Source of the DNA: Oceanospirillum multiglobuliferum
Lineage (GTDB): Bacteria > Pseudomonadota > Gammaproteobacteria > Pseudomonadales > Halomonadaceae
Length of the DNA stretch: 64,000 bases
Direction of reading: 5' to 3'
Assembly: GCF_900167095.1 (NCBI RefSeq)
Contig: NZ_FUXG01000011.1
Coordinates: 64,253 to 128,252 of the forward strand
Shown here: positions 23,854 to 33,283 of the stretch, one piece after another
Position numbering within the stretch: the stretch's first letter is position 1
Layout of the letters: each line of letters begins with the position of its first letter
The notes under the pieces: generated by a model
Told to the model about the DNA's origin: nothing
The model's database searches: none
Seen by the model: the letters and a program-made list of their open reading frames with translations, nothing else
Translations under genes and position numbers: made by a program

Positions 23854-23930
23854 GCCTCAATAGCTCAGTTGGATAGAGCGTCCCCCTCCTAAGGGGAAGG
23901 CCGCAGGTTCGATTCCTGCTTGGGGCACCA
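23854..23930 (+). tRNA. tRNA-Arg (anticodon CCT)
   Basis: 77 bases folding into a cloverleaf. Acceptor GCCTCAA pairs with TTGGGGC, discriminator A, encoded CCA. D arm GCTC/GAGC, anticodon stem TCCCC/GGGGA with loop CTCCTAA (anticodon CCT), T arm GCAGG TTCGATT CCTGC. It is intact and doubles as the attachment site of the integrated element: bases from the anticodon stem to the CCA are repeated at 33235-33283. Confidence 0.97.
23882..23930 (+). repeat. attL: 49-bp direct repeat inside tRNA-Arg
   Basis: Identical to 33235-33283, starting at CCCCCTCCTAAGG and ending at the tRNA CCA. The base before it differs (T here, A at the other copy), so the repeat boundary is sharp. Confidence 0.92.
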
Positions 23931-23985
23931 ATAAACCCTTATAAAACAATGTGTTGCAAGTCTGTGTAAATCGCCTAAAAACCCT

Positions 23986-24023
23986 GTTTTAAAATTAGAT
24001 ACAGCATAGATACAGGGCGGCAC
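23986..24023 (+). repeat. 38-bp direct repeat, left copy (integrase arm-site candidate)
   Basis: Matches 33078-33115 at 37 of 38 positions in the same orientation, 56 bases inside attL. It contains two AGATACAG words exactly 11 bases apart, one helical turn, which fits a recombinase or excisionase arm site. Confidence 0.75.
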
Positions 24024-24215
24024 AAACTAAGACAAACAAACACCCCTAAAGTTTAGCCTCTCCCAAGCTCCCATCCCACTGTATTTTCCAACCCCCTCAA
24101 TATGCGTACCCCATTGGTCAGATTGGCACCAACTTTTAGGCGTTCTGTATCAGCCAAATTAGCGCCAGCACTTGAGCCTAATTTTCTAAATCTTTTTCAG
24201 CTTTTAGCTTTTGGT

Positions 24216-24306
24216 GGTGTAACAGGTGTAACAGGTGCTACAGCGTTGATTTATATAAACTTTCCAAGGTGTAACACTTAAAAGGCTTGGTGTAACAGGT
24301 GTAACA
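24216..24306. repeat. Iteron module, left (91 bp): candidate replication origin
   Basis: GGTGTAACA occurs at 24216, 24225, 24268, 24289 and 24298, with a degenerate copy (GGTGCTACA) at 24234. TTGATTTATA lies 30 bases into the module, an AT-rich stretch suitable for strand opening. The right module (31575-31665) has the same length and layout but inverted orientation. Confidence 0.7.
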
Positions 24307-24487
24307 GGTTGCCTTTGTTGTGGTGGCGCGAATCGGCCTGTAACCCGCATGGTTTATAGGTTTTGGTGTTTTTGCTGGCGCTCTGTGTCAATCAGGTGGG
24401 CAAGTTCAACAGGCTGTTGAAGTGGGTTAGGCGTGGTCAAATCGGCCACCCTTGTAAGCGTTGGCGCTTGTGTTGGCGGTCTGATCT

Positions 24488-24625
24488 CTAGGCGGCTGGG
24501 AATGGGTAGCCGTTACCTTGACGGGGTTCAGGGGGTAATCTGCATTTTTTGCAATAACCGCTTTTGCTAGTAGTGAGGCTTTTACAGGCTGGCGTTTTGC
24601 ATCGGCTTGGTAGGCTTAGAATCAT
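24488..24625 (-). pseudogene. Remnant of an HNH-nuclease-like zinc-finger N-terminus
   Basis: A 45-codon ORF encoding RCKTPACKSLTTSKSGYCKK then C, that is C-x4-C-x10-C-x2-C, then a Pro/Gly-rich tail and a stop. This is the usual start of phage HNH endonucleases (a CxxPGCPxLTxxGYC type pattern), but no His-Asn-His domain follows in any frame. I read it as a truncated gene; an intact small zinc-finger protein is the alternative. RBS is weak. Confidence 0.4.
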
Positions 24626-24728
24626 GGCGGGAATCTCTATGCTGTATTTTTAACCAGTATATCGACTGGGCGGCTTTTTTGCCTTGGGTGTGTTGCGTGT
24701 CTGCCCATTGTCTGCGCACCCCTGTTTT

Positions 24729-24767
24729 GAGCTGTTGCGGGTTGGCCTTTATGTTGGCCTTTATGTT
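24729..24767 (+). repeat. 39-bp direct repeat, copy 1
   Basis: GAGCTGTTGCGGGTTGGCC followed by two TTTATGTT-type units; identical to 24820-24858. Each copy contains an internal TTGGCCTTTATG tandem repeat. Confidence 0.85.
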
Positions 24768-24819
24768 GGCCTTTTGTTGATCTGTGCCTGTGTTGGTGGC
24801 TGATCTAGTGGGCGTTTGG

Positions 24820-24858
24820 GAGCTGTTGCGGGTTGGCCTTTATGTTGGCCTTTATGTT
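24820..24858 (+). repeat. 39-bp direct repeat, copy 2
   Basis: Second copy of the repeat at 24729-24767, 91 bases downstream. The 52 bases between the copies are unrelated to the repeat apart from a few GT-rich words. Confidence 0.85.
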
Positions 24859-24935
24859 TTGCCCGTCAAACCCACTGAGAAAATTTTTCTTATTTCGCAC
24901 ATAAAAAAATACAGCTAAGGGTGCGGTCATTCGCC

Positions 24936-25322
24936 CTATAGAGCTTTGGACTTTTGAGCCGCCCCTACTCGTTGTGCGTTCATTGTCTGCTTAGCCCTGT
25001 TTTGGGGTGTCGTGGGTAGTTGATGTGTCTCTGGTTTAGAGACAGATTTTGTCTTTAACTTAGAGACAGTATCTCTAGTTTGATCCTGTGGCGCTTTGGT
25101 CGTGGTGTGTTGGTTTGGTGTTGGTCGCTGGCCGTGTTGGCTTCGGCACCTTCGGCACCACAAAAAGGCTCTGCAATGCGGTGTTGGGTTCGGTGCTGCT
25201 GACGACCCTCTACCCCCGAAATTTAGCCAATAACCGCGACTCTGCGTCCCCGTGGCGTTCAAAATGTCGCTGGGAAGTACCTTGGGTTTTATTGCCAATG
25301 TGCGCCAGCTTATGATCTGCAC
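24936..25322 (-). CDS. Doubtful 128-codon ORF, Pro/Thr/Gln-rich
   Basis: The reading frame is open, but composition is skewed (rich in Pro, Thr, Gln, Arg and Ser) and there is no clear RBS or domain. The stretch YWLNFGGRGSSAAPNPTPH is vaguely like the opening of Ash/Icd-type phage peptides. It lies in a repeat-rich region where open frames arise easily. I keep it only as a possibility. Confidence 0.2.
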   Translation of the reverse strand: MQIISWRTLAIKPKVLPSDILNATGTQSRGYWLNFGGRGSSAAPNPTPHCRAFLWCRRCRSQHGQRPTPNQHTTTKAPQDQTRDTVSKLKTKSVSKPETHQLPTTPQNRAKQTMNAQRVGAAQKSKAL

Positions 25323-25352
25323 CCAAGATCGGATACGCAGGTATAAGGTTAA

Positions 25353-25401
25353 AACAACCCTAAAGAGGTCAGAACAACCCTAAAGAGGTCAGAACGACCC
25401 T
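25353..25401 (+). repeat. 20-bp tandem repeat, 2.4 copies
   Basis: Unit AACAACCCTAAAGAGGTCAG repeated twice exactly, then a partial third copy (AACGACCCT). It could be protein-binding sites or slippage-generated. Confidence 0.8.
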
Positions 25402-25605
25402 ATATACCTGTGATTGATGTGTCTCCGGTTTGATCCTGTAGCGCTTTGGTCTTGGTGTGTCGTTTGGTGTGCCGTGCTTCCGCTACAGCCCTTGTTATTA
25501 GAAGCCTCTAGCGTGTCACTAGGTGTGTCGTTTAGGTGTTTGGGTTGTGTGAGTGCGGCCAACGGCTTATAGTGCGCCTCAGAGCCTCATTGAAGGCCAA
25601 CAAAT

Positions 25606-25643
25606 AGCCCAGATCGGCATCACTACTGATCTGGGCTTTTTTT
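25606..25643 (+). terminator. Strong rightward terminator in the element's left end
   Basis: AGCCCAGATC, 12 bases, GATCTGGGCT, then seven T on the plus strand. The minus strand lacks a T-tract. As every credible element gene runs leftward, this suggests a rightward transcript from the left end. It also lies just past the stop of the 77-aa gene and could help end that transcript. Confidence 0.8.
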
Positions 25644-25660
25644 CGTCTGTTGGTTTCTGA

Positions 25661-25894
25661 TTAATGGCTGGCGCTTTTGTATGCCTGCTTAAGACTTTGG
25701 CCTTCTAAGCATAAGTTAGTAGGCGGCCTGTGTTTGGGGCTGCGGTGCTGTACTTGGCATAACTTGCATTTAAAGTAGTGCCTGTGCCAGTTGTCACGCG
25801 CCAGCACAAAGGCGGGGTTTGTTGGCTTGCTGGGTGCAATAGCTGTAGTGCCCTGCCTGTTGTTGTAGGTGTTGATTAACTCGCTTAACCCCAT
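25661..25894 (-). CDS. 77-aa small protein with possible zinc knuckle, unknown function
   Basis: The start is two bases after the stop of the DUF927 gene, so it is the last gene of the replication operon. The middle has HYFKCKLCQVQH (CxxC followed by His) and a later Cys (NLCLEGQSLKQAY), enough for a small zinc site. Basic N-terminal half. No homologue recognised; position suggests a replication accessory. Confidence 0.5.
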   Translation of the reverse strand: MGLSELINTYNNRQGTTAIAPSKPTNPAFVLARDNWHRHYFKCKLCQVQHRSPKHRPPTNLCLEGQSLKQAYKSASH

Positions 25895-25896
25895 AT

Positions 25897-27714
25897 CTAG
25901 TACCCTTTGTAGCTTGGTAATACAGCATATAGCCTAACTGGGCGGCCTCCTACACGCTTTGATACTGAGCTTTTACCATCGCTGTTTTTCTCATAGAGCC
26001 ACCCTTCCCCGTCTAGCTTTCTGGCAATGGTCTTAATGTCATAACCCGCCCCAGCTTCTTTAAGTGCTGCTGAGTTGAAATAAAACACCCGCCCTTTTTC
26101 GGTATCCTGATAGTACCCTGCGCGGTTTATCACCTTGTCATTTTGCGGGTTGGTGTACTGTAGGTTGGAGAATCGGCTATCCCCGTGCGCCTCTATGAAC
26201 TCATTAATGCTGGTGAGTATGTGACGGGTTTCTGTGTTGCCTTGGCCACGTTCATTACGCCAAAGGTTAAAGCCCTCTATGGCTGCGAGTAGTGCGCTAC
26301 CCTCTTGCCAGCCTGTAAAGCCAAACTCGGTAGCCAGTTCACCCGCCAGCGCCAACAGGGCAAAGGTTCCACCCGCCCTAGATTCCGCTCCGTCATTGGA
26401 TTTAAAGTCGTCCAGCGCCAACAGCTTTTTGTATTGCTCGGGTAGGCTCTTTTGGTAGCTGGCTAATTCACTGATAAAGGCTAACCCCACTTGCCCGTAA
26501 TGGCTGGCGGCTTCGGCCTGTATCATATCGGCAAAGGTGCGGCCATCTTCAAAGCCGTGTAAGTCGTCAAAAGCACCATAGCGCCTAAGGGCTGCGGGAA
26601 CGCTTAAAAGCCTTGCCTCTTGCCCTGCTGCGGCCTGTTGTCCAGCTTTCGCCATGTGTGCGGGTAGTGTGACCTCTCCATTAGATAAGACCATCAAGCG
26701 CCAACTTGCGGACGTTTGCATACCGCCTGTTTTAACCGCCCTCTGCTTGCCGTTACCATTGGCTAACAGATAAACCATGTTACCTACGTCATTTGGGTCG
26801 CTGAGCGCGAGTTCATCCAGTATCAGACAGCTATCGTTTAAACTGGCGGCCAGTGCCTCTACCCCGTTGCCCGTTGTTGCCCAGCCCCGTCTAAAATTAG
26901 GCGCGCCCCAAACACTTGCGGCCACATAAAGCGCAACAGATTTACCCTTAGAACTATCACCCACAAGGTGAAGCCCTGCGCCCCCTTCGGTCTGCTGTTT
27001 CGCAGGTAGTAATAAGGTTCCCGCTAAACTGGTGCAAACCGACAGAATTAAAATCAAATTGCCTTCGCAGTATTTCCCCACGGATCCGCGCCAGCTCTTA
27101 ACCGTACCTTTTTGGGCAAAGTAGCTTTGGTACCTGCCCTCTGATTGGAACCTGTAGAGCGCATCACCAACGGTCTGATCGGGAAGCACAAAGGCGGCTC
27201 TATCGCCATGCCAGCCTGTACGGGTTGCAGCGACTAAACGGGCGCTCGGTTTACTGCTCATCAGGTAGCGGGTTAGGTGGCTTTTGGCCTTGTCGTTGTA
27301 CACGTAGCCCATTTTCAACAGTTCGCCCCTAAGTGTGTCCCCGTTACCTGCTAATAGCGCCATAGGGGCTAACCATTCACGCCAATAGTTGTTTGTATCT
27401 TTGAAGCGCAGCAACCGGCCAAAATTGTATTTGTGCTCGTCATGGCTTATGGCTTCAACGTGTAGCGGTTCACCTATCCATACGTCTACGGGATTGCCTT
27501 CTCTGTTGGTGTCGTGCCAGTACAAACCCGCTCTGTTGGGGTGAATGCTGGCGCTATCAGCAAAGCGCACATAATCATCATAAGCGCCATAGCAGGGGCG
27601 CTTAATCTCTTTAATGACTAGGCTTGTATCGGCTGGCGGTGTGTCGCTGGTGTTGATGACCTTTAGCTTTAGCGGTGCTTTCTTAACGGGGTTGTCTTTA
27701 GTCGGGTTGGTCAT
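25897..27714 (-). CDS. DUF927 replication helicase of the element
   Basis: 605 residues. A P-loop is clear at about 248-255 (GDSSKGKS), with the Walker-B-like acidic run CLILDELALSDPNDV about 60 residues later, and LMVLSNGEVTLPAHM beyond. DUF927 proteins are helicase/ATPase parts of satellite and prophage replication modules, usually next to a Toprim primase. Here the primase gene overlaps its start by four bases (ATGA). Together they likely form a split version of the P4 alpha-type primase-helicase. The iteron-binding part might be its C-terminal domain or the primase; that is not shown. Confidence 0.85.
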   Translation of the reverse strand: MTNPTKDNPVKKAPLKLKVINTSDTPPADTSLVIKEIKRPCYGAYDDYVRFADSASIHPNRAGLYWHDTNREGNPVDVWIGEPLHVEAISHDEHKYNFGRLLRFKDTNNYWREWLAPMALLAGNGDTLRGELLKMGYVYNDKAKSHLTRYLMSSKPSARLVAATRTGWHGDRAAFVLPDQTVGDALYRFQSEGRYQSYFAQKGTVKSWRGSVGKYCEGNLILILSVCTSLAGTLLLPAKQQTEGGAGLHLVGDSSKGKSVALYVAASVWGAPNFRRGWATTGNGVEALAASLNDSCLILDELALSDPNDVGNMVYLLANGNGKQRAVKTGGMQTSASWRLMVLSNGEVTLPAHMAKAGQQAAAGQEARLLSVPAALRRYGAFDDLHGFEDGRTFADMIQAEAASHYGQVGLAFISELASYQKSLPEQYKKLLALDDFKSNDGAESRAGGTFALLALAGELATEFGFTGWQEGSALLAAIEGFNLWRNERGQGNTETRHILTSINEFIEAHGDSRFSNLQYTNPQNDKVINRAGYYQDTEKGRVFYFNSAALKEAGAGYDIKTIARKLDGEGWLYEKNSDGKSSVSKRVGGRPVRLYAVLPSYKGY

Positions 27715-28637
27715 AGGCTCCCCCCGTTCATCCAGTTGGCTAGGTCGTTGAAGTCGGTTAGATGTTCAGGTGCACCAATAGGCCAATCAGGCGCAACCAG
27801 TAGGGCATCTGTGGCTATGGCGGCTTCACGGGCTTTCACCATGCCCACGTTTATTCCTTCGCGTTGGGCTAACAGGCGGTCATCATCAGCGCATACAGTG
27901 AGTGCGGCACTAGGCCACCGATTACGGGCAAAGGTGGCAACGGCTTTAAGGTTGTTAGCATTCATGGCACAAAGCACGGCCTGCCCTGTGTCCTCGTAAA
28001 TGGTCGCACCGGTTGCCCATCCCTCGCAGATATAAACTGCAGTTGGTGCGTCACATAAACCCATAAAGGCAAAAGCGCCAGCCATACGGCCACCCGATAA
28101 AAAGCGTTTCTGTATTTGGCCTGATTCGTCTCGGTAGATGCGTTGCAGATTCACCAGTTGATCATCTGCAAAAAGCGGTACAAGCAAGGTGTTACCCAAT
28201 TGCATTAGGTCATGTGCGCCAACTTGTTTATTGACTAAGTACGGGTGCTGCGGATCGGCTGGGGTCGCACGGCTGATTAGTTTGAATGCTTTCTCTCTGG
28301 CGGCTTGTTGGCGTTGGCGGGTTTCTTGTTCCCGCTGCCTTTTGGCCTCTGCCAGCTTTTGATCAAATAGCTTGCGCTCTGATCGGGTCATGGATGGCTT
28401 ACCGCCACAAATCCATGTTTGATAATGGCCTGTACGCCAGTTGCCAAAGTAACCCGCTGGGTGGCAATCATCTAAAAACAATTGGCAATAACAGGCGTTG
28501 TTGCCGCGCTTGCCCTTGGGATCATCAAAGCGGGTAATCTTGCTGGGGTTGACGTGATTGGGGGCGGCTCCCAAGTCTTTGAGCATGGCCGCCTTGAACT
28601 GATCCTCTACCATTCCGATTAACCAATCATCACTCAT
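27711..28637 (-). CDS. Toprim-domain primase of the element
   Basis: 308 residues. The N-terminal part resembles a P4-type primase zinc region with CYCQLFLDDCHPAGYFGNW and WICGG; the middle is a charged coiled helix (residues about 80-115). The C-terminal Toprim domain has the catalytic Glu in VYICEGWATGATIYE (about 205) and the acidic CADDDRLLAQ (about 250). It makes primers for element replication in the cytoplasm. It overlaps both neighbours by a few bases, so translation is coupled to the DUF927 gene. Confidence 0.85.
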   Translation of the reverse strand: MSDDWLIGMVEDQFKAAMLKDLGAAPNHVNPSKITRFDDPKGKRGNNACYCQLFLDDCHPAGYFGNWRTGHYQTWICGGKPSMTRSERKLFDQKLAEAKRQREQETRQRQQAAREKAFKLISRATPADPQHPYLVNKQVGAHDLMQLGNTLLVPLFADDQLVNLQRIYRDESGQIQKRFLSGGRMAGAFAFMGLCDAPTAVYICEGWATGATIYEDTGQAVLCAMNANNLKAVATFARNRWPSAALTVCADDDRLLAQREGINVGMVKAREAAIATDALLVAPDWPIGAPEHLTDFNDLANWMNGGSL

Positions 28638-28944
28638 GACTCACCCCACTAGCGCCAGCGGTTGCCGCTTGTTCTGCATCGTCATTGCTTGGGTATAGGC
28701 TTTCGCTCATGTCCTCGATACGTGCGGCCACCTCTGCGGTCTGTGCTGCCATCACGCTTAAGGCATCCATTAAACCCAAGGTATCGGCCTCAGTCATAAA
28801 TGGCACGTTTTCAAAATTAAGCGTTGCCAGTTTGGTAATGGTGCGGCTGCCCCTGCTGATCGTCATTAGCTGCTGTGCGTAGTCGTTCAACAAGGTGGTC
28901 TTGTAGTGCTCAATAAACGCCTGGTTGTTTGGTGTATGGCTCAT
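28630..28944 (-). CDS. 104-aa element protein, unknown
   Basis: Overlaps the primase start by eight bases and is itself overlapped by four bases by the gene upstream, so it belongs to the leftward operon. Mostly helical, acidic at the C-terminus (EDMSESLYPSNDDAEQAA), with no Cys and no motif that I recognise. Confidence 0.6.
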   Translation of the reverse strand: MSHTPNNQAFIEHYKTTLLNDYAQQLMTISRGSRTITKLATLNFENVPFMTEADTLGLMDALSVMAAQTAEVAARIEDMSESLYPSNDDAEQAATAGASGVSHE

Positions 28945-29195
28945 GCTTTGCCCCTCGCCCCTTTGATGCTGTTAACGTCTCGGTCAAAACTCCCCGTTGT
29001 TTCAACTGTATGGTGCCCAAGCTGGCGCAAGGCGTAGATAAGCCCAAGGCGGTCATTGCCGCTTAGCTGTGCGGCTTCGTGGTCAACCTCTGAGTGAGCC
29101 AACAGGTTAGCGATTGAATAAACCGCTGTACCAATCTCAAAAAAACGGGTGCTGTAGTCTTCTGCAATATCTTTGATTAAGTCATGGCGGCTCAT
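28941..29195 (-). CDS. 84-aa element protein, unknown
   Basis: Four-base overlaps with both neighbours (ATGA). A helical small protein (LIKDIAEDYSTRFFEIGTAV; LGLIYALRQLGHHTVETTG) with no recognised domain. Its place in the operon before the primase is its only functional hint. Confidence 0.6.
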   Translation of the reverse strand: MSRHDLIKDIAEDYSTRFFEIGTAVYSIANLLAHSEVDHEAAQLSGNDRLGLIYALRQLGHHTVETTGSFDRDVNSIKGARGKA

Positions 29196-29686
29196 TGTGT
29201 GCGGCCTCCATGCTGTAGAGGCTTACGGCTGACTAGCGCCAACGACAGGCCAACGAATGCAGAACGGGCAACAGATAGCGTGGGGGCGTAACAGCTCACC
29301 AAACGGACGCGGTTAAGCTGGGATAGCTTTAAGCCCTTGGGGGCAATAAGAAAGGTGTAGATCATGGGATGGAACCCCTTGTTCATTTTGAAAACAAAGG
29401 GCGGATTGGCAGCCGCAAGACAGCACCGAACAAGGAAGGTGCAGCGGGGGGCTTCGCGGTCAAGCCGCTTGGCTCCCAATCCATCCCCCCAAAACAGGGC
29501 AAAGCGCACCAGCTTAAGGCCAGTGTGCAAAAATTTGTCATTAGGGAGATTATGTTCTCCTTGTTCAGATACTGCCTGCGGGTGTCTAATCCGCCTGCTG
29601 TGCTGGGTGTCTAGTCCAGCGCCACCGATACTAACGACAGCACCGACAGAAGGCAATACACAATGCGTGTTAGGTGTGGTCATCAT
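29192..29686 (-). CDS. Ash/Icd-like phage protein (host cell-division inhibitor-like)
   Basis: 164 residues with two parts. The first 100 are low-complexity and Arg/Cys-rich, as in Ash-type frames of P4. The last 65, from an internal ATG (MNKGFHPMIYTFLIAP), fit the Icd-like pattern: a beta strand, then LNRVRLVSCYAPTLSVARSAF and a basic tail. In P1 and P4-like elements such genes use nested starts and affect cell division or helper derepression. The internal start may be the functional one. Family assignment is by pattern only. Overlaps of four bases with both neighbours place it in the operon. Confidence 0.5.
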   Translation of the reverse strand: MMTTPNTHCVLPSVGAVVSIGGAGLDTQHSRRIRHPQAVSEQGEHNLPNDKFLHTGLKLVRFALFWGDGLGAKRLDREAPRCTFLVRCCLAAANPPFVFKMNKGFHPMIYTFLIAPKGLKLSQLNRVRLVSCYAPTLSVARSAFVGLSLALVSRKPLQHGGRTQ

Positions 29687-30000
29687 GCGGCCACCTTTGC
29701 GAGATAATGCTTAACCAAGTTATCAGCATCAGCGCGGCTACTTTCGGCCAACGTGTAGCGGGTAAAGTATGCTGTGCCGCCATCTTGGTGAATGTGCGGC
29801 TCTGGCTGGCGCTCAATGGTTAAACCGTGGGTATTGCTTAACTCGCTGATTGTTGAGTGTAAGCAGGTTTCCCCGTACAGGCTCAACGCTTCCAACTGAA
29901 TCAGTGATCGCGCCATCAGATACTGTAAGGCTATAATCTTTTTCGGTGGCTTACGGCTGGCGGCCTTCTTAACGGGGGGCGCTGGTTGTTGCTTCGTCAT
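29683..30000 (-). CDS. 105-aa basic element protein, possible DNA-binding
   Basis: A Lys/Pro-rich N-terminus (PPVKKAASRKPPKKIIALQY) is followed by a region with winged-helix character: ETCLHSTISELSNTHGLTIE and a beta wing TAYFTRYTLAES. It is 15 bases after the AlpA-like gene and overlaps the Ash/Icd-like start by four bases. Similar small proteins accompany satellite replication modules; function unproven. Confidence 0.6.
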   Translation of the reverse strand: MTKQQPAPPVKKAASRKPPKKIIALQYLMARSLIQLEALSLYGETCLHSTISELSNTHGLTIERQPEPHIHQDGGTAYFTRYTLAESSRADADNLVKHYLAKVAA

Positions 30001-30015
30001 CTTGTCACCTTCCCC

Positions 30016-30255
30016 TTATGCAACCGCCATTGCGGCCTGTGCGGTGTTGGTGAAGGTCTGAAACTGCGCCAGCCAATTATCTAGGTCACTTTTCTTATAA
30101 CGAACGTTGCGCCCCATTTTAATGAATGGCGGGGCTTCTACGCCTGCCAGTGTTCCAGTGGCACGACTTAAACGAATGGTGTATTCACTAAAGCCCAAAA
30201 TTTCAGCGGCTTGAGCACTGGTTTTAAGTGTGGTGTTAGTTTCTGGTGCGGTCAT
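30016..30255 (-). CDS. AlpA/excisionase-like HTH protein
   Basis: 79 residues with a MerR-type winged HTH: TSAQAAEILGFSEYTIRLSR (recognition region), then APPFIKMGRNVRYKKSDLD as the wing and a C-terminal helix. AlpA-like proteins of satellites act as activators or recombination directionality factors for the integrase. It is the first gene of the leftward operon. Its Shine-Dalgarno (GAGG) lies in the 3' arm of a perfect 13-bp hairpin, so its translation is likely controlled. Confidence 0.82.
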   Translation of the reverse strand: MTAPETNTTLKTSAQAAEILGFSEYTIRLSRATGTLAGVEAPPFIKMGRNVRYKKSDLDNWLAQFQTFTNTAQAAMAVA

Positions 30256-30258
30256 GTG

Positions 30259-30296
30259 TTGCCCTCACGTTTCTTTGTTGTTTAACGTGAGGGCAA
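30259..30296 (-). promoter_or_regulatory. 13-bp hairpin that buries the Shine-Dalgarno of the AlpA-like gene
   Basis: In the mRNA: TTGCCCTCACGTT, 12-base loop, AACGTGAGGGCAA, then CAC and the ATG. GAGG, the RBS, is in the 3' arm, seven bases before the start codon. As DNA it could also act as an operator. Confidence 0.7.
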
Positions 30297-30422
30297 GGTT
30301 AAGCGGGAGTTAGATTGCTTTCTCTACAGGTTTTAATTTAACAAAACCGCCTCAATTTCATGTTGAAGGATGTTGTAGCAATTAGTTAAAACTAATTATT
30401 GCCGCAAGTTTTGGTTTCTAGT

Positions 30423-31370
30423 TTATGGCTGGTTAATATTTTCTATCGCCATTTCTGCATAGAGCTTATTTAAAAATGTTTCAGATAATGCCTTTTCTGC
30501 ATTAGGGGCAGTTACTCTTTGTACCTTGTCTGCGCTTCTAACTTCTTTAACGCCATTGTTAAAAGAGAACAGAATCTGAGCGGCTAAAGCATCGGTTAAA
30601 ATTCCATGCCCCTCTAAAGAATCCCATATAGTTAAATCAATATATGGAATAACTCTGTCATTTATCACTTTCTCAATAGTTAGGTTTTTAGGCTCTGGCG
30701 GATATATGCCTATGATCTCTCTGTATTTCTCAAGAAAGGCTTTTACATCTCTTAGTATCTCTTTGTTAGTTGCGGCTAGGTCAATTGATAAATGAACCTC
30801 AGTTCTACCTTTGCAAACGCCAGAGCAAGAATTCAATAGGGCAACGTCATAAGCCATGTGGTCAATATCGTATTTTGGCAGGCTGGCGCGCTCTTTTAGC
30901 AGCATATAGGTGTCATCTAAGCCCCCATCCCTAAAGTTTTTGGTATCTGCTGACAGGCTTTTTTCTCTGATCCTCTCATCTCCAAAGGAATCTATTATGT
31001 CGTATTTGTCGTTAATCTCTTGTTGTGCTTGCTCGGCCAGAAAAAGCATTGTCTCTTTAGCCCTAATTACCGCCTCTGCCATTTCTTCGACTTGACTAAC
31101 ATAGATGGGCGAAACCAAGGCGGTTCGGGGTGTTTCTTTGGTCGTGGCAATATCAATTTGGTAACCCATATCTGATAGGCTTATTTTTCCTGTTTGTTTG
31201 ATCTGCTCCCAGTGAGATAAAACCCATTCGTTTTCCGTTGGCAGCATATCCCGTAAAAGCGCCCTAGCCGATAACTGTTGGTATAGTTCATACAAAGAAC
31301 AGCTTTCCAAATACTCGTAATTGCTGTGCTTATACCAACTTAAATCAATATTTTTCTTGGTCACTTCCAT
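30423..31370 (-). CDS. DUF6387 family protein
   Basis: 315 residues. Pattern match to DUF6387: a short N-terminus with WYKHSNYEYLESCSLYELYQ, a variable middle, and a C-terminal VIPYIDLTIWDSLEGHGILT followed by LAAQILFSFNN. Family members are found beside integrases of gammaproteobacterial elements; no function is known. It lies between the AlpA-like gene (167 bases away) and the right iteron module. No membrane segment is seen. Confidence 0.7.
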   Translation of the reverse strand: MEVTKKNIDLSWYKHSNYEYLESCSLYELYQQLSARALLRDMLPTENEWVLSHWEQIKQTGKISLSDMGYQIDIATTKETPRTALVSPIYVSQVEEMAEAVIRAKETMLFLAEQAQQEINDKYDIIDSFGDERIREKSLSADTKNFRDGGLDDTYMLLKERASLPKYDIDHMAYDVALLNSCSGVCKGRTEVHLSIDLAATNKEILRDVKAFLEKYREIIGIYPPEPKNLTIEKVINDRVIPYIDLTIWDSLEGHGILTDALAAQILFSFNNGVKEVRSADKVQRVTAPNAEKALSETFLNKLYAEMAIENINQP

Positions 31371-31708
31371 TTTGCTGAACCCTTACCAGCACCCCCTCAT
31401 TAGATCGGCTAACCAAGGCAAAGAGGGTTGCTTTGCTTTTCAGGCCGTCACCCTATGGTTAACCGTTGCTGTATATAATCACAGCTATACAACAGGCAAC
31501 AAGCGCAAATAAGGAAAGGGTTAGGCGGGTTGGCTTACTGGCGCTTCCTTAGTAGACACCATAGGATTAAAAAGTGTTACACCTGTTACACCTACTATTT
31601 CTTTAGGTGTAACGCTTAAAGCCCTTATAAATCAATGTTGTAACACTTGTTACACCTGTTACACCTAAAAAACATAGCTCCCCAAAATTAATTTAACTAT
31701 TCCCGCCC
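31371..31708. other. 338-bp spacer that holds the right iteron module
   Basis: No gene seen; the short plus-strand ORF at 31321-31512 overlaps the DUF6387 start and lacks an RBS. It separates the integrase stop from the DUF6387 start and should include the DUF6387 promoter. Confidence 0.6.
31575..31665. repeat. Iteron module, right (91 bp), inverted relative to the left one
   Basis: The complement TGTTACACC occurs at 31575, 31584, 31648 and 31657. A GGTGTAACG in opposite orientation lies at 31606, and the complement of TTGATTTATA is at the same offset as in the left module. Length and spacing match the left module exactly. Confidence 0.7.
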
Positions 31709-33064
31709 TTAATTCGTGACCGCCTTAACCTCTGGCAAGCCTGTAGTGTCGCTGGGCATCAGTGCGGTATTTGCAAACAGATCAACAGCATGGCGCTTGT
31801 GGTCAGGTCTAAGGTGGCCGTAATTCTTAATCGTGGTGTGTATGTCCTTGTGCGCCATCAGTTCAGATACGGCCAACAGATCGACCCCCGCCATAATCAA
31901 CTGACTAGCGAAGTTATGGCGCAAGGTGTAGAGCACTAGCTTTGTGGGTAGACCTGCCAACTGGCGTATTTTTGCCCAAGGCGTTTGCATCGCGTTTTTA
32001 CTCATGCGGCCACCTGTACGCTCAGAGGGGAATACATAGCCGCTTATTGGCTTGCCTCGTTGCTGGTGCCAGTCGGTCAGTATTTTTACTAACGGCTTGC
32101 TGATCGGGAATGAACGTGGCTCAGGGTTATGGTGAGCTGTTTTCTCTATGGTCTTGGTGATCGTGGCAAAGTTTAGGTTAACGTGCTCCCATCTCAAGCC
32201 GAACATATCCCCAGACCTAAACCCCGTGTAATACATCATCAACACCATAGGCTTAACGTGATCAACATACGTCATAACATCCCAGTCAGGTAATCGTAAC
32301 TTTCCATGTGATCGGCTGTTCCTGCGTTGCTGGCGTTTAATTTCTTGATAGTCGTCTAGTGCTTTGAATAGTGCGGTGACTTCGTAAGCCTCTAGGTACC
32401 TGCGACTAGCGCCAGCTTTAGAAAGCTCGATTTCCGTCATAGCAGGCTTGGTTAATTTGTATCCCTTGATAGGGTTGCTATCAATAAACCCTTTGGTGGC
32501 GGCATGGTTGAGCATGGTTCTAAGCGCGCCAAAGATTCTAGTAATGGTTCCCCATGCCAAACCCTCAGCCTCTTTGGTTGCCTGCCATCGTTCTATGTCT
32601 CTTGAGGTGATTTTTGATAAAGGTCTGCCCATCAGATCAGTAAAATGGTTGCTGATCATCGACAGGGTTTCTTTGCCCTTTTTGTGTCGGTCTTGGTATA
32701 CCTTGTAATGCGTCCATAGATAGGCTTTTAGCGTTTGCTGTTTTTGCAGGTCAGATTCTTTTTTAGCACTTCGCTTAATTTCTTGAACATCCTCCCCTCT
32801 AGCGACTCGCCCTAATAGGTCTTTTGCCTGCTCTCTGGCTTGCTCTGCTGTTATTTTTGGGTAATGGCCTATCGTGTAGATTCTCTGGGTATTACTGTTT
32901 GGGGCTTGGTATTTGATTCTAAAACTAATGCTTTTTGCACCAGACCGAACATGAAAGCCTTGGATCTCAGAATCAAAAATATCTTTCGTTGGTTGGTCTG
33001 CTGAAATGGCTCGGGCAATTTGCTGTAGTTTTTTAGCAGTGATTTTTTCAGTTGTCTTTACCAT
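31709..33064 (-). CDS. Tyrosine recombinase/integrase of the element
   Basis: About 451 residues from MVKTTEK. An N-terminal arm-binding DUF4102-like part (KLQQIARAISADQPTKDIFD), a SAM-like core-binding domain (about 110-210) and a catalytic domain with Arg in TGFRSGDMFGLRWEHV, the box YTLRHNFASQLIMAGVDLLA and the Tyr nucleophile in TTIKNYGHL. The first His of HxxR is Tyr, a variant seen in related integrases. It catalyses insertion at tRNA-Arg(CCT). An upstream ATG in frame (33115) would start inside the 38-bp repeat; the downstream ATG has GAGAG before it. Confidence 0.92.
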   Translation of the reverse strand: MVKTTEKITAKKLQQIARAISADQPTKDIFDSEIQGFHVRSGAKSISFRIKYQAPNSNTQRIYTIGHYPKITAEQAREQAKDLLGRVARGEDVQEIKRSAKKESDLQKQQTLKAYLWTHYKVYQDRHKKGKETLSMISNHFTDLMGRPLSKITSRDIERWQATKEAEGLAWGTITRIFGALRTMLNHAATKGFIDSNPIKGYKLTKPAMTEIELSKAGASRRYLEAYEVTALFKALDDYQEIKRQQRRNSRSHGKLRLPDWDVMTYVDHVKPMVLMMYYTGFRSGDMFGLRWEHVNLNFATITKTIEKTAHHNPEPRSFPISKPLVKILTDWHQQRGKPISGYVFPSERTGGRMSKNAMQTPWAKIRQLAGLPTKLVLYTLRHNFASQLIMAGVDLLAVSELMAHKDIHTTIKNYGHLRPDHKRHAVDLFANTALMPSDTTGLPEVKAVTN

Positions 33065-33077
33065 CTCTCTGTACCTA

Positions 33078-33115
33078 GTTTTAAAATTAGATACAGCATA
33101 GATACAGAGCGGCAC
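33078..33115 (+). repeat. 38-bp direct repeat, right copy, upstream of the integrase
   Basis: Second copy of 23986-24023, overlapping the possible upstream integrase start. It lies in the integrase promoter region, so it could serve both autoregulation and recombination. Confidence 0.75.
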
Positions 33116-33234
33116 CCATTAATGTCAACAAGCACCAACAAGCGTATACAGTGAAAATCAGCTAATTGATTGTATTTGAAGGGATATTTTGAGTTTTCTT
33201 GTTTATGCTTGTTTGTGGTAATATACGCCCTTAA

Positions 33235-33283
33235 CCCCCTCCTAAGGGGAAGGCCGCAGGTTCGATTCCTGCTTGGGGCACCA
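33235..33283 (+). repeat. attR: 49-bp copy of the 3' part of tRNA-Arg
   Basis: Identical to 23882-23930. It carries half of the anticodon arm, the T arm and CCA, but no 5' half, so it is not a functional tRNA. Confidence 0.92.

Follow-up and report, generated by a model that had tools for sequence, protein, structure and literature searches.

What is the function of two 91-bp iteron modules that face each other across the replication genes of an integrated element? The question is raised by a 64,000-nucleotide stretch of the Oceanospirillum multiglobuliferum genome (NCBI RefSeq assembly GCF_900167095.1, contig NZ_FUXG01000011.1, positions 64,253 to 128,252 of the forward strand), hereafter the window, which carries a 9.35-kb element integrated in tRNA-Arg(CCT). 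A sequence-only reading of the window had proposed an undescribed bipartite replication origin. Our analysis of the window and of 66 relatives suggests that an integrative satellite-like element probably has its replication origin divided between the two modules, one half in each. Such an origin would most likely be of a known kind, that of phage P4 and the phage-inducible chromosomal islands (PICIs), in a new form, with the halves split around the replication genes and bound by a DUF927 helicase. The features that carry the argument are the following.

24216 to 24306, plus strand: left iteron module (word-blind module score 50; shuffled maximum 41)
24216, 24225, 24234 (degenerate), 24268 (lone) and the pair 24289 and 24298, plus strand: iterons of the left module
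25897 to 27714, minus strand: DUF927 protein, 605 amino acids (Pfam PF06048, E 1.3e-78)
27711 to 28637, minus strand: Toprim primase, 308 amino acids (Pfam Toprim_3, E 3.5e-9; best PHROG 2249, E 1.2e-52)
31575 to 31665, minus strand: right iteron module, inverted (word-blind module score 52)
31657, 31648, 31639 (degenerate), 31606 to 31614 (inverted lone copy) and the pair 31584 and 31575, minus strand: iterons of the right module

The iteron word GGTGTAACA occurs in the left module, read on the plus strand, at offsets 0, 9, 52, 73 and 82, with a degenerate copy, GGTGCTACA, at 18. The right module, read on the minus strand, has exact copies at offsets 0, 9, 73 and 82 and a degenerate copy, AGTGTTACA, at 18, and both modules carry TTGATTTATA at offset 30 (24246 to 24255, plus strand; 31626 to 31635, minus strand). 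The lone copy of the right module is inverted with one mismatch (GGTGTAACG on the plus strand, offset 51), and the exact left copy at offset 52 shares bases with an inverted copy that has two mismatches and lies at offset 54 (24270). The coordinates, equal length, inversion and internal offsets reported in the sequence-only reading, and its flipped lone copy in the right module, were all recovered here. With one module reverse-complemented the two agree at 66 of 91 positions, against 27 of 91 without inversion. They rank first among the inverted 91-bp pairs of the element, for which 25 dinucleotide shuffles give no more than 48.

All nine exact copies of GGTGTAACA in the window lie inside the modules, as do 2 of the 15 one-mismatch copies, both in the right one; exact and one-mismatch copies together number 24, against 14.1 expected. 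The 18-bp tandem pair, with up to two mismatches, was found in the 3.5-Mb genome at four exact and two two-mismatch places, all in the modules; the claim that the element has its own iteron stands. Exact tandem 9-mer pairs are scarce in the window and are mostly rotations of GGTGTAACA; five shuffles gave 0, 0, 0, 0 and 1. As had been described, the modules flank the replication genes: the Toprim primase and DUF927 genes, which overlap by 4 bp, lie between them, in an interval of 7268 bp.

We looked for paired modules around other DUF927 genes, as the sequence-only reading had proposed. Of the genomes sampled, 43 of 390 from the order and 69 of 275 from the family contained DUF927 relatives, seven genomes, including the source genome, being in both; these genome searches supplied the relatives, and DUF927 protein scans of genome-contig and viral-contig collections confirmed none. 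The 66 relatives (individual loci are given L numbers) comprise 60 hand-chosen stretches, taken mostly by rank, and six named records. The selection skipped some primase-DUF927 fusions and some near-identical matches, and since near-duplicates were kept (L037/L039, L117/L118 and L101/L104) the counts are not independent. All 67 loci, the window included, were oriented by DUF927, and every position was given a word-blind layout score for three tandem 9-mers, a pair 71 to 75 bp further on and one inverted copy in between. The maximum over 80 shuffled strand scans was 41, and the threshold for a seed module was 43. A second module was sought with a word model built from the seed, and was accepted if it beat all 50 shuffles.

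A seed module lay near DUF927 in 46 of the 67 loci, and a second module was accepted in 39 of these 46 (38 relatives and the window), inverted in 39 of 39. The second module of the window scored 77.7 against a shuffled maximum of 40.7, and was inverted and shared the word. Pairs were found in 10 of 10 relatives with at least 45% identity to the window DUF927 protein, 17 of 24 at 40 to 45%, 8 of 17 at 36 to 40% and 3 of 15 below 36%. The two modules of the window share a layout of three direct iterons, a core, a lone iteron and two direct iterons, and most near relatives repeat the paired plan with other words. In the relatives' modules that were inspected the lone copy is usually inverted, a biased sample because the selecting scan itself scores an inverted block.

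The spacing between the modules is free, and their inverted orientation is kept. In 26 of the 39 elements the DUF927 open frame contains the first module within its 5' end and is followed by the second past the stop, with gaps of about 1672 to 2002 bp; in-frame placement was judged from open frames with start codons unmapped, and L089 is cut by a contig end. The iteron period of 9 preserves the DUF927 open frame. In ten elements both modules follow DUF927, at distances of up to about 1.5 kb, and are separated by 18 to 55 bp in nine and by 662 bp in one. In the remaining three (the window, L086 and L110) the first module is found just after the integrase, with gaps of 5179 to 7270 bp; over a 91-bp stretch that overlaps both modules, L086 shows 82/91 identity in inverted orientation. 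Outside the group with both modules downstream, the second module begins 12 to 44 bp past the DUF927 stop in 27 of 29 elements, 225 bp past it in one and about 1.59 kb past it in the window.

The word itself varies widely, with 23 distinct iteron words among 33 loci. In the 21 elements in which both modules were found blind, the words of the two modules differed at 1.29 of 9 positions on average, against 3.78 under shuffled pairing (p ≤ 0.0001), and three of the four largest within-element differences resemble register shifts of one word. Across 30 elements, word distance followed DUF927 distance (Mantel r 0.53, p 0.0005) better than primase distance (r 0.27) or integrase distance (r 0.08, p 0.058). 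Partial Mantel tests on the same elements gave r 0.54 for DUF927 given primase and r -0.28 for primase given DUF927, kinship among elements entering the tests only through such partial correlations. The DUF927 alignment used 34 of the 67 loci and a domain-resolved Mantel test 33, the latter giving a partial r of 0.26 for residues 401 to 500 and -0.20 for the N-terminus, so that the signal is spread and the C-terminal domain is not singled out. The iteron word thus tracks DUF927 better than it tracks the primase or the integrase.

What the DUF927 protein may do is suggested by its homologues. A profile of 34 relatives matched the Protein Data Bank (PDB) entries 8tch_A (E 2.4e-39) and 5dgk_A (E 7.2e-24), and the window protein by itself also matches both. 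The match to 8tch_A spans profile positions 88 to 571 of 574, and the homology therefore extends into the C-terminal part. From their PDB titles ('Pathogenicity island protein' and 'Active helicase') we take these entries to be the Rep protein of a Staphylococcus aureus pathogenicity island (SaPI) and Cch, respectively. On these grounds the DUF927 protein is a probable initiator helicase of the Cch/SaPI Rep type. In the available part of one report, Cch is described as containing DUF927 and as related to SaPIbov1 Rep, and the C-terminal domain of SaPI Rep as recognizing an iteron origin directly downstream of its own gene (PMC7581432).

The recurrence of inverted pairs, the word shared within each element, its tracking of DUF927 and the homology to SaPI Rep together favour the origin reading. 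How such an origin might work can be outlined from its parts. The element would first excise and circularize. The DUF927 protein, as a self-loading helicase like SaPI Rep, would then bind the iterons of both modules, probably with one assembly per module. By coordinate arithmetic, the halves would lie 7268 bp apart on the excised circle through the genes and about 1.9 kb apart through the integrase and attP. The two sites may act together through DNA looping, by analogy with P4, in which both ori1 and crr are needed for replication and the alpha protein binds and loops them. Strands would open at or beside a module, the helicase would load and the Toprim primase would prime. The constant inverted orientation, combined with free spacing, suggests either DNA-loop pairing or two helicase assemblies of opposite polarity.

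Comparison with known origins indicates that this kind of origin is not new and that its form may be. The sequence-only reading had compared the modules with P4, and the comparison proved apt. In the annotated P4 record, ori1 and both 120-bp repeats of crr contain type-1 iterons, and in ori1 GGTGAACA, one base shorter than the window's word, lies at 0, 10 and 21, followed by an inverted copy at 43 and copies at 86 and 96. The window layout, at 0/9/18, 51 to 54 and 73/82, may be comparable with that of ori1; crr is laid out differently. In both systems the initiator operon stands between two separate iteron regions, the P4 crr lying about 45 bp 3' of the alpha gene, and in both the two regions are mutually inverted, in P4 by majority. 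The window primase and alpha also have the same best PHROG, 2249. However, alpha combines Toprim, D5_N, DUF5906 and Pox_D5 domains in a single fused protein that lacks DUF927, whereas the window has separate Toprim and DUF927 proteins. The repeat period of ori1 is 10 to 11, and crr consists of two 120-bp repeats with iterons 3 to 2 in two directions. In published work, a P4 cosmid carrying crr and a P4 origin, inactive there, is described in the available part of PMC9942202, and the part available of a survey of P4-like satellites makes no mention of 'crr' or 'origin of replication' (PMC8628076).

PICI origins have two iteron sets near the initiator gene, according to the accessible text of PMC6092414, and the ten elements with both modules downstream of DUF927 resemble them. 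The window helicase is likewise homologous to 8tch_A, presumably SaPI Rep from its title. In the Escherichia coli PICI origins mapped there, as described in that accessible text, the sets are grouped 3' of rep on either side of an AT-rich region (PMC6092414), whereas those of the window are separated by the replication genes, the left one lying far beyond the DUF927 stop. In the staphylococcal cassette chromosome mec (SCCmec), the available part of PMC7581432 describes an initiator helicase, Cch2, that binds direct repeats just downstream of its operon; Cch2 is a SaPI5 Rep/D5-type helicase, and its three short iterons stand in one place (PMC7581432). The DUF927 relative is Cch, not Cch2, and in that part of the text an origin is covered for Cch2 and none was found for Cch. 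In the open-access literature, judged by titles and abstracts among the matches listed and with subscription papers mostly outside, the split arrangement around DUF927 is not described. The core letters gave no match in a full-text search of the open-access literature, and 'iteron' is absent from the available parts of PMC10111431 and PMC10803314. Of the proposed undescribed bipartite origin, the split form around DUF927 is without a match among the listed open-access titles and abstracts; the kind was already known from P4 and from the two iteron sets of PICIs.

Several observations weigh against the origin reading. The word does not track DUF927 residues 501 to 605, beyond the AAA+ part (partial r 0.04, 33 loci). 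No module scoring 43 was found near DUF927 in 21 of the 66 relatives, among them the phage vB_Pae_U10 and the plasmid pHS87b; these seedless loci include contigs cut close to the gene (L106 and L125) and many distant DUF927 proteins, and in two others, L105 and L107, the best inverted 91-bp pair flanks DUF927 with scores of 55 and 53, chance elsewhere giving 46 to 53. In 7 of the 46 seeded loci the second module was reached by 1 to 6 of 50 shuffles, these weak clusters being inverted in six of the seven (the exception is L116). Fourteen further hits of at least 43 lie outside accepted pairs; those in L047, L089, L091, L092 and L120 look like extra modules, and others lie in L113, L044, L041 and L093. 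A strong AT-rich block adjoins the modules that lie downstream together and is missing beside those that flank the gene. In the window, the left module is distant from the DUF927 stop, and the cores are without much of the usual core. Finally, the P4 iterons divide 5 to 1 by polarity in ori1 and, with the majority facing the other way, 3 to 2 in each crr repeat, so that ori1 and crr are opposed by majority only; the P4 polarity toward the initiator gene is the reverse of that in the window.

Among the alternatives, the strongest is that one module alone is the origin and the other serves in copy-number control or handcuffing by titrating the initiator, in which case the origin would not be truly bipartite. 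Handcuffing iterons exist in iteron plasmids, and the very variable distances between modules would be allowed by looping and by titration alike. However, titration does not need the invariant inversion seen in 39 of 39 pairs, and the layout is kept in both modules, with 82 of 91 positions shared over the inverted stretch of L086; we therefore regard this explanation as possible and rather unlikely. The modules could instead be operators for the AlpA-like regulator or another helix-turn-helix (HTH) protein, as the position of the right module upstream of the DUF6387/AlpA block might suggest; this is improbable, given a word that tracks DUF927 and the 26 elements in which the modules sit at the two ends of the DUF927 gene, one within the 5' end of the open frame and one past the stop. 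That the modules are integrase or excisionase arm sites is very improbable, despite their place in the outer parts of the element and the Arm-DNA-bind_3 domain of the integrase, because a separate 64-bp repeat lies near each att site, the word hardly follows the integrase, and in 36 of the 39 elements the modules either lie in and just past the DUF927 frame (26) or are both downstream of it (10). We thus return to the two halves of an origin, which would have arisen from a P4/PICI-type origin by the halves moving apart to flank the replication genes.

The cores, which occupy the space between the iteron triple and the inverted iteron, are of more than one kind. CAG[C/T] stands at the core start, as in CCAGYAATGACGSGG, in 27 of 37 upstream (plus) cores and, depending on the pattern used, in 2 or 3 of 31 downstream (minus) cores, whereas GCTCAACCnTGnGG occurs in 13 of the 31 downstream cores and in none of the 37 upstream ones. 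The right core of the window keeps GGGCTTnnAGC and the left core keeps little of it, so the core argument does not rest on the window. P4 ori1 has CAGTAATGAC between the triple and the inverted iteron; L101 and L104 carry the same ten bases in their upstream cores, in the opposite orientation to the iterons when compared with P4, a likeness that may be coincidental. Of six cores folded as candidate hairpins, the L041 type beat its shuffles (z -3.69) and the 18-mer core did not (z -0.16); a core hairpin was rejected.

A tentative idea that takes in these cores, and that we hold rather doubtful, is that of a general origin grammar common to satellites and phages with different helicase families (DUF927 and alpha/DUF5906). 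It would comprise a constant iteron frame, two kinds of core (one module favouring CCAGYAATGACGSGG, the other GGCTCAACCATGCGGGTT), an exchangeable word co-evolving with the helicase, and non-equivalent facing halves about 20 bp to 7 kb apart, even with one inside the initiator coding sequence. In viral contigs GGCTCAACCATGCGGGTT gave 66 stretches, against 0 for the reversed control, and CCAGTAATGACGGGGNTT gave 36, some of which resemble terminator hairpins. Ten large open reading frames (ORFs) near viral cores included a DUF5906 helicase with other primase domains in L138, L150 and L187 and DUF927 in L161; alpha relatives occur in two further viral loci, L201 and L218, and by eye L138, L201 and L218 show the module layout. 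Counting against such a grammar, a module scoring at least 42 lay within 100 bp of only 1 of the 66 GGCTCAACCATGCGGGTT stretches, DUF927 was near 2 and an alpha relative near 1, and 17 of the 66 fall inside open frames of at least 150 codons. The other core, with up to four mismatches, lay within 3 kb of 2 of the 36 CCAGTAATGACGGGGNTT stretches, against 3 of 36 in the best of three shuffles each, so co-occurrence of the cores in viral contigs is not shown. A blastn search of phages with the 48-nt core region returned four records at E 0.9 to 3.

Some loci hold more than one set of repeats or a different one. L047 (7053 to 8072) and L120 (7147 to 8945) have two successive origin-like pairs past DUF927 with different words, of GGCAACA and GTGGGAACA type, possibly reflecting two initiator specificities or a decoy. 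The weak clusters of L045, L114, L115 and L119 are about 120 bp away from their seeds, a distance also seen in L120, where the pair does reach significance. L091 (15859 to 15949) and L092 (4241 to 4331) carry a third module of GGTGACA type just after the integrase, which is the place of the window's right module, and a GTGGGAACA pair around DUF927 is present too. The circular plasmid record of pHS87b (L039, 6850 to 7420) and phage vB_Pae_U10 (L037) share another type without a standard module, with ACCTGGTGC copies in inverted pairs and a repeated GCTAGC. In the Candidatus Nitrosoglobus plasmid pTAO100 (L038, 4275 to 4800), a DUF927-type pair adjoins an array of ATATCCCTACA at 22-bp spacing before repM.

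The rest of the element is made up as follows.

23854 to 23930: tRNA-Arg(CCT) gene, whose 3' end is attL
23882 to 23930, plus strand: attL, a 49-bp direct repeat at the 3' end of tRNA-Arg(CCT), 100% identical to 33235 to 33283
23981 to 24044, plus strand: 64-bp repeat close to attL, direct and 83% identical to 33073 to 33136
28630 to 28944, 28941 to 29195 and 29192 to 29686, minus strand: three small ORFs with no assigned function
29683 to 30000, minus strand: 105-amino-acid ORF with a weak HTH_39 match, under the Pfam cut-off
30016 to 30255, minus strand: AlpA-like HTH_17 regulator/excisionase, from family matches
30423 to 31370, minus strand: DUF6387 protein, accessory cargo (Pfam E 5.2e-60)
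31709 to 33115, minus strand: tyrosine integrase (Phage_integrase E 1e-25; Arm-DNA-bind_3 E 1.6e-13)
33073 to 33136, plus strand: copy of the 64-bp repeat close to attR, partner of 23981 to 24044
33235 to 33283, plus strand: attR, a 49-bp direct repeat at the right element end

On the minus strand the gene order is integrase, DUF6387, AlpA-like HTH, small ORFs, Toprim primase and DUF927, with the right module between the integrase stop and DUF6387 and the left module beyond DUF927, within about 1.6 kb without a recognized gene. Between DUF927 and the left module (24307 to 25896) this stretch has internal repeats at 24729 to 24858, three 20-bp units at 25346 to 25405, a 128-amino-acid ORF at 24936 to 25322 and a 77-amino-acid ORF at 25661 to 25894 with family matches only at chance level. 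The 64-bp repeat near attL is possibly an Int/Xis arm region. Capsid and packaging families were not matched in the ten ORFs scanned, save for a chance-level PHROG hit (E 0.095); Rfam searches of the window and three viral loci gave tRNAs only, and a megablast search of the element against plasmids gave no match. The tRNA-Arg locus is present in six of six genomes of the genus, the source genome included. In another of these, G539, a second copy of att (98% identical) follows about 10 kb downstream, beside an integrase 72% identical to that of the window (contig C25, about 720720 to 731122). More than one element thus seems to use the tRNA-Arg site; a search of G539 gave no match to DUF927. 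Across the short loci of the six genomes an empty integration site was not shown, the right-flank gene occurring only in the source genome.

In this group of elements, the module layout would supply a sequence rule for predicting origins across a large group of little-studied integrative elements. It also provides a natural set of initiator and iteron-word pairs from which to learn how DUF927 helicases read DNA. With a half-origin up to 7 kb away, or within the initiator gene, these elements would allow the cooperation of distant inverted sites in helicase loading to be tested, a question so far tied to P4.

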